Shown here piece after piece: positions 20,325-25,375 of a stretch of DNA of 64,000 nt. A model generated the notes under the pieces. The model saw nothing but the letters and a program-made list of their open reading frames with translations. It ran no database searches and was not told the DNA's origin. The translations under genes were made by a program, and so were the position numbers. This DNA comes from Aurantiochytrium sp. KH105 (lineage: Eukaryota; Sar; Bigyra; Thraustochytrida; Thraustochytriidae), in the NCBI GenBank assembly GCA_003116975.1, contig BGKB01000008.1, positions 1 to 64,000 on the forward strand, in the 5' to 3' direction. Numbering within the stretch: the stretch's first letter is position 1; each line of letters starts with the position of its first letter.

Positions 20325-20625
20325 AATTCGGCTCCAGCATAGAGGCAAGCTGGAAGAGGGGCGGCCCAGTGGTAAGTATGGGGCGCGCGCACGAAATCGT
20401 CACCCAATGTCACGTCCCAAGGGTCCAGGCCGGGCAGCCCGCGGCCCGGTCTCCGATGATTGAAAGCTACCCCCGCTTATTGACGCCAAGTCTCAGAGTC
20501 CGAGATACACCGGTAAATGAGAAGGTATGGCAGCAGACCCGCAACAGACGCACGCCCTCACTGTCGGTTCAGACGCCAACAGGAGCTCGAATTGGTCCTC
20601 TTCAAGCAAGAACGGCGTGGTCACG

Positions 20626-23600
20626 ATGATGCTTCGGCATTTGCTGCTCCTGGTGGTCCTTCTTTGTGCCTCAGCCTTGTCGAGTGGAACATCTTGCGAC
20701 TGCTACCCTGGTCCTTGTTACGGCTCGTCAACTTATGCTAACTGCGCCTCCAAACTCACCGAAGACGAGGACCGCAACACTGACGTCTTCGACCCTCCCC
20801 TTTCTTCCTTGACCTCGCTCACGTATCTGTAGGTTTTCTTCGTTGAAGAGTGCTGGCAAGTTATACTAACCAATCCGTCTATAAATGTAGCGATCTGGCG
20901 AACAACGGGCTGACGGCTATCTCTCAATCTATTGGCCAGCTGACAAGTCTTGAGAAACTGTACGTGCTTCAAGATCATCGATGTCGCGAGACCAAAGAGC
21001 TGTTACTAACACCCGCTTTTTGAATATGTTATTGCAGAAGTGTCCACGTCAACAAGCTTACCGAATTGCCTTTTTCGATTGGGCTTTTGACAAATCTGAC
21101 TGACTTGTACGTGAAAGTGGCCGAAGCTGATCACTCTCCCAGAATACTAGAAAGATGACTCTCACACTTGAACGCGAGCAAAAACAGGATTTCCTACAGC
21201 AACAAGCTCACATCTCTTCCCGAGAGCATTTCAGGACTTTCCGAACTTACCCGCCTGTGAGTCAGATGATCTCATCATATGGTTGACGAGACCTGAAAGA
21301 GTTGCTACTAACATTTGCTTTTTCAAAAATATCAGAGAAATTCAGCATAACAACCTCACGACATACCCCTCTTCGATTGGGGCTTTGATCAAGCTGAATG
21401 ATTTGTACGTGAAAGTGGCCAAGGCTGACCATTCTCCTAGAATAGTAGAAAGATGACCCTTACACTTAACCGCGCGCGAAAAAACAGAATTTCCTGGGGC
21501 AACCAGCTTACATCCCTCCCTGATAGCATTTCGGGACTTTCCGAACTTACCGGACTGTAAGTCAGATGATGTCATCGAATGTTTGACGAGACCTAAAAGA
21601 GTTGCCACTAACCCTGGCTAAATTTCGTTCGGTCTAACCGAACGAAATTTTCGGCGAAATAGTTTCCCCGATCCGGCGGCAGGCTGGGTCAGTGAGACCG
21701 AACGAAATCTCTGGCAAACACGCGAGGCATTGCATTAAATACTTCTATTCAATTTTAAATCTTGCCGATTGGCCAGATCGTTCCCACGATGCCCCCGCAC
21801 CCCTCTGCAAGTTTGCAGGCAAATTCCCCCGGTGGAAGGGTTGTTGTTCTTCTGCAAAGTTGGGTACCGTGAGGGCGAACTTGACCATGACCTAACGACC
21901 GCGCTTCATCAAGCGCTACAGCGGCTACAGCGAGCAGAAAAGCTTGGCAGCGTCGCGAGTCACGCTCTGCGATCGTACCCCTGGCATGATCGCGTCCAAT
22001 TTGTTTGCATAGCGGCCCGTTGCGCGAGTTTGAAGCTGGCAACTGCCTCGAGCGATGGCGAGGCCCATGTCGAGAGCTGGTCGAGACGCTGCAGCTCAAC
22101 GTCAGCCCAAGCACGGAGGAGGAGGAGGAGGAGCGTGCACATGAGCTCGATGAGGGCGCTCGAGATGATATTGACTGCGATCATGCCGATCTGCAAGACG
22201 AGCAAGATGATTCTTTTGGAGAATCGATCAAGCTGACAGGACGCGGTTCCTGGAGCTTTGAGTCCTTTTCACGGCGTAACGCCGCGTATCACGGTGACCT
22301 CGCGGGGGCAGTACGCCCTCTTGACTCGGTTGATTTGAAATTCAATCCGTACGGAAGTTTGGCTCTCGAGAAGCTCAAACGGGAGGCAGATGTGGTCGTG
22401 AAGCGTCTCCGCGAGCAAGCGAACAAAAGTGATGACGATGAGGGCATGCAACCCGCCGAGATCTTTCACATGATCATGCCGCCAAACTTTATTAACATCT
22501 TCGAAACATGGCTCAATGAATGTGCAACGATTTATAACGAAAGGCTCGCTCGAGGAAAGCGATGCGGACAGTCTCGAAGGATCCATGCCGGAGTGCAACC
22601 AGTTGGAGAAATATGTGTTCGCTCTGAAAATTAAGACCGCGACAGTGCGGTCTTCGGAGACGGCTCTCGATGAGCGGGTTTCTCGACAAGGTCTGTTTCG
22701 AGAATGCGACGCGGGTGCACAGGACGTCAAAGATCTTCTGCCAAATGCATCCTATTGTGCACAATGTGCACACCATGCAGCTGTTTTGGATGCACCATGC
22801 ACATTTCTAGTGTACGCAGATACGGTCGATATCCGGCAAATTGTGATCGTCAGATTTTCATCGTCACAGCGCCAGGCCTGGAGGCTCTACTTCTCATCCG
22901 TCGCCAAAGAGTACCTTGGCTTCATTTACTCTGATGCTCAGGAGCCCGTTCCAGACATTGCCGAGGACTACAGCGAGCACCTCGGTTTTGCACAAGACCA
23001 TCACACCGTAGAGATATACCTGCAGCTCTGGCGCAAGTACAGTATCGACATCATTTCCAATGGGACTCCACCGCCGGCCCGGAAACTTATCCCTATCACA
23101 GGTTCTTTCTGGAACCACATGATGGGAGGAGTGGACACTGTGCGAAAGACGTTATCAGGTCGCGCGCAGCGGACTTCGCGTTTGACTCCAAATGCGATCA
23201 TGATCTCAACATGGTTCGAATATGCGCTCTACAATTGCTTTCGTGCCTACCAGCTGACAGAAAATAGGGACTTTATACGCACGTGCAACTCTTGGGAGTC
23301 ATGGATGCCGCGCAAGAAAGGTATCTCGTTTGAGAAATTCCTGGAGAAGCTACGCATCAGCTTAAACGAGCTGGAGTCGGCGCTAAATGTGATGTTTAAA
23401 GGAACCAGAGCGGATGCGAACGAGCTCGAAGATCCGCCTGAAGAGGTTATGAATCCGAGAGGACTTGGATATCGAGCCAGGCGTCTCCCTGAGATTTTGT
23501 CAAACCGAGCACAGGACAAGCACATGCAATTGCTGCAAGATAAAGCTCGTGCGTGCACTATATGCTGCACTAAGTGCGAAAAGGGTCAAAGTTCCGACGA

Positions 23601-25375
23601 ACACGCTAGACAAGCTCGTAGGACGCAAAAATGGTGCTTGGCATGTGACACCGCCATCTGCAAGCACTGTTGGGCGCGCTTCCACGCCTCGGATGGTGCT
23701 GTCCAGGTAGCTCATGCGAATGTATGAAGCTCCTATACCTTTGCGACTATCCTGGCACGATACGTCACTCAGCAGCACCTCCTGGCATGCTCATTCGCTC
23801 ATTTAAGCAATTGTGCTCTCATTTGGAGCCCGGTAAATCTTGATCACCCGAGCGCAACGCAATTTAAAATTTGGCTAGGCGAAACTCACCTAACACAGTC
23901 TTAGTCATATTACTCCTAATTAATTTCGTTCGGTCTCACTGTATCGGTCTATTCTGGCCAAATAGGCCACTTCTCCGCCGCCTTCCCCCAAATCTAGTTT
24001 TCCCTACCCCTTGACCAAAACTGGTTCCCAAGCCTTTAAAATTTGGCACAGCAATCTACGGGCAGAGATCCTTCCCTGTGCTTAATTTCAAGGCGCGCGA
24101 GTTAATTTTGAGCGCGCTGGAAGAGATCAGGCAAATGAAATTTCGTTCGGTTTTTCGTTCGGTTTCATGTGGCTAGCCAGGGCTAACGCTCGCCTTTTGA
24201 ATTTTAACTCATTGCAGATACCTCGGCTCCAATATGCTCACGGCATTACCTGCTTCGATTGGGGCTTTGACGAAGCTGAATATTTTGTACGTGAAAGTGG
24301 CCGAAGCTGAGGGTTCCCAGAATATTAGAAAGATAACCCTTACGCCCGAACGCGAGCAAAACCAGGTCTTGCATCAGCAACCAGCTCACGTCCCTACCCG
24401 AGAGCATTTTGGGACTTTCCGAACTTGATTTCCTGTAAGTCAGACGATGTCATCGAATGGTTCACGAGACCTGAAAAAGTTGCCACTAATATTCGCTTTT
24501 CAAAAAAATACCTTATTGCAGAGATGTCCGCTCCAACAACCTCACGGCATTGCCCTCTTCGATCGGGGCTTTGCCCAAGCTGAGAGTCTTGTACGTGAAG
24601 GTGGCCGGAGCTGACCGTTCTTCTGGAATATTAGAAAGATGACCCTTACACTTGAACACGAGCAAAAACAGATATGCCCAGAGCAACCAGCTTACGTCCA
24701 TTCCCGAGAGCATTTCGGGAGCTACGGAATTTGGTTACCTGTAAGTCAAATGATGTCATCGAAATGGCGAGGCAGAAAACGATTACACGAGCGAACAGCT
24801 GGAGAGGAACTGACAATCCGATTTCTATTGTAGATACGTGAATAGCAACCCTCTTACCTCCCTTCCCGAAAGTCTGTCTGCACTCACCAAGCTCCATACA
24901 CTGTACGTTCAACGCACTCGCTCATCAGAATCAAAGATTAGGAGTACTTATAATCAGTCGAACAGGAACATCTCCGACACAGATCTCACGAAACTTCCTG
25001 AAGCGGTCAGTAGCATGACAGGTCTGACCTCCTTGTAAGTCCTTCGCGAAATATCATCGGTGCAAGAAAGCTAACACGATTTTTATGCGCAGGGACATTG
25101 ATAATGTTCCTCTCTGCGGGCCACAACCAGTTCTTCCTGCCTCCCTCACTGGGACATCCAGACCGTATGAAGGAACAGGAGAATTCCCCGCGTGTCATAC
25201 GTCGTCCTCTACGGCCAACGAGTCGTCCGCTTCGCTAGCGCTTATCGTTGGTCCCGTGACTGGTGCGTTTGTGGCCGTCTTCGTGTTTGCCGCTGTCTTC
25301 ATCCGTCGCCGCAGTCGCGCGGCCAAGACCGAGGCCGACGAGAACGCCAAAGGCGCCGTTGTTGCCAGTCCGTGA
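20626..25375 (+). CDS. LRR receptor-like type I membrane protein, 13 exons, one LRR per 69-nt exon
   Basis: Exons: 20626-20828, 20891-20959, 21038-21106, 21188-21256, 21336-21404, 21488-21556, 24218-24286, 24366-24434, 24522-24590, 24672-24740, 24834-24902, 24966-25034, 25093-25375. They join in frame to 414 residues. All introns are phase 2 with GT..AG ends, and all eleven internal exons are exactly 69 nt, each one 23-residue LRR of the form LxxxxNxLTxLPxSIxxLTxL. A signal peptide follows the ATG at 20626 (LRHLLLLVVLLCASAL); an upstream in-frame ATG at 20527 would bury it. After the LRRs come a Cys/Pro linker, one membrane helix (ALIVGPVTGAFVAVFVFAAVF), RRRSR and a short tail without a kinase. 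It is a likely surface recognition protein. Intron 6 is enlarged by the transposon at 21612-24182, which splicing should remove. Confidence 0.88.
21608..21611 (+). repeat. Left target-site duplication CTAA
   Basis: CTAA directly precedes the element's CCCTGGCTA end; the matching CTAA follows the element at 24183-24186. Confidence 0.8.
21691..21708 (+). repeat. Left subterminal inverted repeat of the piggyBac-like element
   Basis: AGTGAGACCGAACGAAAT, a perfect inverse match to 23923-23940. Possible transposase-binding site. Confidence 0.85.
22005..22634 (+). pseudogene. piggyBac-like transposase, N-terminal part
   Basis: A 209-codon frame with an acidic Glu-rich start and a PPNFINIFETWLNE-type segment that resembles the early catalytic part of DDE_Tnp_1_7 transposases. 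It overlaps, in another frame, the ORF that carries the C-terminal part, so the transposase is frame-disrupted or internally deleted. Resemblance in this half is weak; assignment rests on the partner ORF and the element's ends. Confidence 0.5.
22516..23727 (+). pseudogene. piggyBac-like transposase, C-terminal part with Cys-rich domain
   Basis: 403 codons. The later half has the family's landmark WNHMMGGVDTVRK (piggyBac-type NxxMGGVD), an aromatic helical region (WFEYALYNCFRAYQL) and a terminal Cys/His cluster (CTICCTKC, CLACDTAICKHC, RFH) like the piggyBac C-terminal zinc-binding domain. The first about 120 residues show no clear DDE core, so the catalytic middle seems lost or out of frame. 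Transcribed only as part of the LRR gene's intron. Confidence 0.7.
23923..23940 (-). repeat. Right subterminal inverted repeat of the piggyBac-like element
   Basis: ATTTCGTTCGGTCTCACT, a perfect inverse of 21691-21708. It lies about 240 bp from the right end, whereas the left copy is 79 bp from its end, an asymmetry seen in other piggyBac elements. Confidence 0.85.
24183..24186 (+). repeat. Right target-site duplication CTAA
   Basis: CTAA immediately after TAGCCAGGG. With the next base it re-forms CTAAC, the branch-site-like sequence of the sibling introns. Confidence 0.8.

Follow-up and report, generated by a model that had tools for sequence, protein, structure and literature searches.

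An internally deleted, possibly piggyBac-like transposon in the presumed branch site of an intron of an Aurantiochytrium leucine-rich repeat gene

The window analysed here comprises positions 1 to 64,000 (64,000 nucleotides) of contig BGKB01000008.1 from Aurantiochytrium sp. KH105 (assembly GCA_003116975.1). It contains a gene for a leucine-rich repeat (LRR) protein, the sixth intron of which holds an internally deleted DNA transposon. In all likelihood the transposon took the CTAA of the presumed branch site by chance, through a preference for CTAA, and the target-site duplication kept CTAAC in place, with splicing probably continuing. The locus is composed as follows.

20626..25375, + strand: gene for an LRR membrane-type protein, 13 exons and 12 introns, 414-residue product from the ATG at 20626
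21488..21556, + strand: exon 6, 69 nt
21557..24217, + strand: intron 6, 86 nt without the element and the extra CTAA, 2661 nt with both
21601..21612, + strand: GTTGCCACTAAC, 5' copy of the sibling-intron motif, its final C supplied by the element
21608..21611, + strand: target-site duplication, left copy CTAA
21612..24182, + strand: non-autonomous DNA transposon, 2571 bp, with full-length relatives (L009 and L010) that have the same ends
21612..21620, + strand: 5' terminal inverted repeat CCCTGGCTA
24174..24182, + strand: 3' terminal inverted repeat TAGCCAGGG
24183..24186, + strand: target-site duplication, right copy CTAA
24183..24187, + strand: CTAAC, presumed to serve as the branch site, its native distance to the acceptor retained
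24218..24286, + strand: exon 7, 69 nt, phase 2-2, skippable in frame

The introns of the LRR gene were placed by reading frame, GT/AG ends and similarity to sibling introns. Removal of all 12 (20626-25375) left a single uninterrupted frame, with a second in-frame ATG at 20527. Each of the 11 internal exons is exactly 69 nt long and corresponds to one 23-residue repeat, and the introns are of phase 2. In Pfam, the product matched LRR_14 (E 6e-33), LRR_4 and LRR_8; it has a hydrophobic start and, judged by eye, a hydrophobic stretch close to its end.

The boundaries of the element were obtained by direct reading. The left flank ends in ...GTTGCCACTAA, the element begins with CCCTGGCTAAATTTC and ends with TGTGGCTAGCCAGGG, and the right flank begins with CTAACGCTCGCC.... 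When the assembly (76 Mb, 367 contigs) was searched for relatives, two full-length copies, L009 (98.7% identical) and L010 (97.7%), were found to have the same end bases in different surroundings, so that the boundaries are fixed independently of the inverted repeats. The insertion point within the CTAAC motif of intron 6 and the flanking CTAA duplication, both proposed in the initial annotation from the window alone, were therefore borne out. It had also been proposed that the 3' copy retains CTAAC about 30 nt before the acceptor. This holds, since the presumed branch A (24186) lies 31 nt from the final base of the intron (24217), as it does in the joined empty site. As a correction, the 5' copy likewise reads a complete GTTGCCACTAAC (21601-21612), because the first base of the element is C, and intron 6 thus now carries two CTAAC motifs. 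N letters and contig ends were seen within the copies L010, L011, L012, L024, L027 and L028, which suggests that the assembly breaks or joins at this repeat and that some copies may be misassembled.

Spliceosomal branch sites are marked by a conserved motif of the YTNAY type shortly upstream of the acceptor. The joined intron 6 (86 nt) could be aligned end to end with 15 sibling introns from the LRR gene in the window and two paralogous loci, with 63-73 identities over 86-109 columns. ACTAA was identical in all 15, a result which is partly circular, since these siblings had been chosen for holding CTAAY. A fairer set was found by the donor half alone and consists of 21 introns, intron 6 included, from the window gene and three paralogous loci. 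Here, a script identified CTAAY in the stretch searched in 17 of the 21; an upstream CTAAT in one of them (L060 1398) raises this count above that at the homologous place, where a reading of the printed rows gave ACTAAY in 16. The remaining five read ACTGAC (twice), ACTTAC, ACTCAC and ATTAAC, and YTNAY fits all 21.

Of the 12 introns of the LRR gene, 6 have CTAAY within 45 nt of their end, compared to a mean of 1.2 after shuffling of the letters (1 of 2000 shuffles reached 6); four of these six introns are siblings and hence not independent. A motif of the expected type before the acceptor was also obtained with CTRAY, present in 7 of the 12 introns (shuffle mean 1.7, 2 of 2000 reaching 7). 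In introns 1 and 12, neither of which is a close sibling, CTAAC lies 21 and 18 nt before the intron end, respectively. The longer string GTTGCYACTAAY, which had been named as the motif of the sibling introns, reflects shared descent, and the portion recurring in the less related introns 1 and 12 is CTAAC. The sibling counts, these two introns and the excess over shuffled letters make CTAAC very probably the branch site of intron 6, with YTNAY as the looser rule. A rival candidate closer to the acceptor in intron 6, TTTTAAC, was dropped, being poorly conserved in the aligned siblings.

The introns of the LRR gene (20829-25092), like those of the paralogues L058 and L059, mostly alternate between two sequence types, one with CTAAY and the other with TTGAAC or a similar string before the acceptor. 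In the two paralogues the branch motifs recur every ~306 bp, so the duplication unit of the gene seems to be two exons together with two introns.

From the conservation of ACTAAY, the retained native distance and the intact frame of the LRR gene, it might be concluded, as suggested in the initial annotation, that rebuilding of the branch site by the duplication is what allowed the insertion to persist. This explanation appears doubtful. A 4-bp duplication of CTAA at CTAAC must preserve the motif, so that its preservation is a matter of geometry, not of adaptation, and has not been picked out by selection. An insertion at the upstream CTAA of intron 6 would equally have kept motif and acceptor together, CTAAY is absent from the homologous place in five of the 21 siblings, and there are other explanations for the tolerance.

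One of these, somewhat less doubtful although still not the favoured one, is that damage to splicing would be mild. Exon 7 is one symmetric exon among 11 internal exons of equal length and phase, its skipping would keep the inferred spliced frame, and the gene belongs to a large family: a DNA search with its 3' half gave at least 139 matches. However, the intact frame fits normal splicing equally well, and retention of intron 6 would introduce a stop at once. A further explanation, which we regard as unlikely, is a recent insertion that impairs splicing and has not yet been purged. The perfect duplication and the 98.7% identity to the closest full-length copy are in agreement with a young insertion. 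No second, empty allele was seen in the assembly either, where long matches to the 3' half of the gene at other places were at best 77-79% identical. On the other hand, the gene contains no frame-breaking change, though it would be too early to expect one if the insertion is recent.

Within the element, remnants of a transposase were identified.

21990..22634, + strand: N-terminal transposase remnant, stop to stop, 214 codons, 88% protein identity over 165 residues to L024
22474..23727, + strand: C-terminal transposase remnant, stop to stop, 417 codons, 92% protein identity to L028
22543..22545, + strand: internal deletion junction (element position 932-934), transposase middle removed

The two remnants lie in different frames. 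Three longer copies are present in the assembly, L024 on C344, L028 on C310 and L027 on C309. At element position 932-934, L024 leaves the sequence of the element, and L028 and L027 join it. L024 has a frame of 730 codons (with one N inside) and L028 one of 630 codons, both reaching the contig end, and both carry parts of the transposase that the window copy is without. This implies that the window copy and the relatives sharing its junction are deletion derivatives, which depend on an enzyme supplied by another source. Frames of 1,307 and 1,317 codons with 38-43% identity were found on C152 and C40.

The initial annotation had called the element piggyBac-like. In favour of this are the TA-centred 4-bp duplication and the terminal repeats starting with CCC (CCCTGGCTA/TAGCCAGGG), which recur with small variants in the other 14 two-ended copies. 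Further, an open frame on C65 (1244 codons) matches the C-terminal part of the family with 26% identity (E 1e-10) and itself matches Pfam DDE_Tnp_1_7 weakly (E 0.003, 22.6 bits with neighbours). MGGVD, a string present in the C-terminal remnant, may correspond to a piggyBac motif. The TTAA duplication of the piggyBac superfamily is not shared, the duplications here being of the form NTAN, and a direct match is lacking: Pfam gave none for either window remnant at E up to 1, a search of PDB sequences with the C-terminal remnant gave nothing, and the longer open frames yielded only chance-level matches (Pfam with L024 and L028, PDB with L024 only). With phmmer, the open frames of eight of the nine PF13843 loci in the genome, some of them cut by locus ends, showed no significant similarity to the element family, with a best whole-sequence E of 0.18. 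The piggyBac-like character of the element is only indirectly supported. Two other loci, C193:25715-26917 and C261:24287-25489 (L049 and L050), contain frames of ~1,545 codons with full-length DDE_Tnp_1_7 matches. No detectable similarity of these frames to the element family was found, and they are possible domesticated piggyBac genes.

For the target sites of the family, 45 rows (35 + 10) were reduced to 39 sites, entered by hand. Six rows did not count as separate sites: the ends are damaged or foreign in L030 and L042-L045, and the pair L046 and L047, with near-identical flanks, was entered once. L029 was entered by its right flank GTAT (left, GACT) and L022, the right end of which is damaged, by its left flank. 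Relatives with ~66-71% identity contribute 14 of the 39 sites (L035-L037, L048, L061-L070). Among 15 two-ended copies, 13 have identical 4-bp flanks, all TA-centred (CTAA 5, ATAG 4, CTAG 2, TTAA 1, GTAT 1), the exceptions being L029 and L033. With one-ended copies and the distant relatives included, NTAN was present on at least one usable side at 34 of the 39 sites; those without it beside the end are L031 (CGAA), L033 (CTGG/TGAA), L066 (GTCG), L067 (TCAA) and L069 (GCTA). In a pairwise comparison of the left flanks of 42 copies, only L042-L045 resembled each other. These four have near-identical flanks and only a ~113-bp subterminal piece of the element, preceded by foreign sequence, as though another repeat had captured it.

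CTAA was the commonest target, at 9 of the 34 NTAN sites compared to 1.4 expected from the NTAN content of the flanks (p = 7e-6). When the two groups were tested separately, CTAA was in excess among the closer copies (5 of 23, p = 0.002) as well as among the distant relatives (4 of 11, p = 0.0008). Of the suggested preference for TTAA and CTAA, the CTAA part was thus confirmed and the TTAA part was not, TTAA occupying only 2 of the 34 sites. Along the element, CTAA was read 9 times and TTAG not once (p = 0.004, this being one among several reverse pairs examined); in the closer copies alone the ratio was 5 to 0 (p = 0.06). It might be imagined that in a piggyBac-like lineage the outer T and A of TTAA ceased to be required and that CTAA came to be preferred in an oriented manner, an idea we hold to be improbable. 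If true, a host with ACTAAY branch sites would offer these as ready targets, always entered in the sense direction. Each insertion would then leave two CTAAC motifs, the first preceded by the original upstream sequence and the second as far from the acceptor as before, and the element would be nearly harmless to splicing.

The 12 introns of the LRR gene contain 56 NTAN sites, 6 of which are the branch CTAAY. Weighted by the observed preferences, into which the window insertion itself and a pseudocount enter, the branch sites account for 29% over the gene, and the one in intron 6 for 39% of the weight within that intron. An exact hit therefore needs no special cause once the element has entered such an intron, and the insertion looks like a chance event, made likelier by the taste of the element for CTAA.

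A targeting of branch sites or of introns as such was suggested by the initial annotation, and would be in keeping with CTAA as the top and seemingly oriented target. This is very improbable in view of the surroundings of the other copies. Reading frames were examined at 30 loci, counting the window, with both flanks available for 18, and a demonstrated intron was identified for the window copy only. The next base is C in two of the five two-ended CTAA copies, namely the window copy and L026. The latter, tried as support for intron targeting, was rejected as such, since it sits between two complete genes for DOMON-domain proteins. A frame scored as crossing the insertion was found only for L010, which lies ~120 bp behind a CTP synthase gene, and this frame is weak (106 codons). 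L020 has an open frame with an FMN-oxidoreductase domain that, counted from stop to stop, begins 5 bp from the element. At 6 of 11 loci measured, a coding-like frame lies within 210 bp of the element, and at the other five none is nearer than 443 bp. The copies L014, L015 and L021 are located in short gaps between convergent open frames, at 17-366 bp from each.

The coincidence with the branch site is thus attributed to the CTAA preference of the family and to the share of CTAA among the TA-centred tetramers in the LRR introns, not to a targeting of splice signals. In this course of events, a cut-and-paste transposon, non-autonomous after its internal deletion, would have been mobilised by transposase made elsewhere and would have entered the intron-rich LRR gene at a TA-centred tetramer, several of which were suitable. 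By chance, this tetramer would have been the CTAA of the presumed branch motif. A 4-bp staggered cut would have duplicated it, and CTAAC would automatically have been kept at its usual distance upstream of the acceptor, so that exon 6 is probably still spliced to exon 7 across the 2.66-kb intron.

Several points weigh against this proposal. The continued splicing of exon 6 to exon 7 is what we infer from the sequence. The 5' CTAAC is followed by YAG triplets 51, 71 and 81 nt downstream, and together these could pull mis-splicing into the element. Introns in untranslated regions may exist at some of the other loci. Finally, no excess of CTAAY introns was seen outside the LRR gene, where 3 cases of GTRNGT...CTAAY...YAG were counted compared to a mean of 9.9 after Markov resampling, in a partly overlapping sample. 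Introns of this type may therefore be scarce, and a chance hit less likely than the shares within the gene imply. A finder of introns based on open reading frames (294 kb) was tried as a source of branch-site statistics; its 22 candidates were of poor quality and it was dropped.

Among the papers listed in a literature search, made largely in open-access journals, none described a transposon that had entered a branch site and preserved it by its duplication. The single insertion is a neat case of a duplication sparing a splice signal, and no more than that. In human, PGBD3 is described as residing in intron 5 of CSB, a working gene (PMC3459987). The arrangement here is similar, with a possibly piggyBac-like element inside the intron of what would be, judged from sequence, a working gene. 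In the human case, however, alternative splicing fuses the transposase with exons of CSB; no fusion of this kind was seen here, nor was one sought.

Introners are likewise DNA transposons whose target duplication takes part in splice signals; one study gives 5 to more than 2,000 copies per genome and states that the duplications can provide 5' or 3' splice sites (PMC9860276). In contrast to Introners, which create new introns, the element described here entered an existing intron and supplied no needed splice site. New introns at many sites, as known for Introners, were not found: siblings of intron 6 exist without the element, and none of the others among the 30 loci lies in a demonstrated intron.

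There is also a likeness to the piggyBac superfamily, including Trichoplusia ni piggyBac and Daphnia Pokey, with which the element shares the TA-centred 4-bp duplication, the CCC...GGG ends, a length of ~2.5 kb and the distant protein link through the C65 frame. It differs from them in the rarity of TTAA and in the missing direct Pfam match. Three of four piggyBac 5'-end motifs in a list taken from one article start with CCC (PMC10813416). For Pokey, TTAA makes up 88% of the targets, the remainder being TTAT, ATAA and CTAA, and the middle T and A are described as the sole essential nucleotides (PMC3849761). The more useful lead is a transposon family with piggyBac-like ends but NTAN duplications. 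In a structural study, the TTAA specificity is explained, among other contacts, by the outer T forming a hydrogen bond with the outer A (PMC7351741). A relative tolerating C, A or G at the outer position would therefore be a natural test of the TTAA model, if its transposase has that fold.

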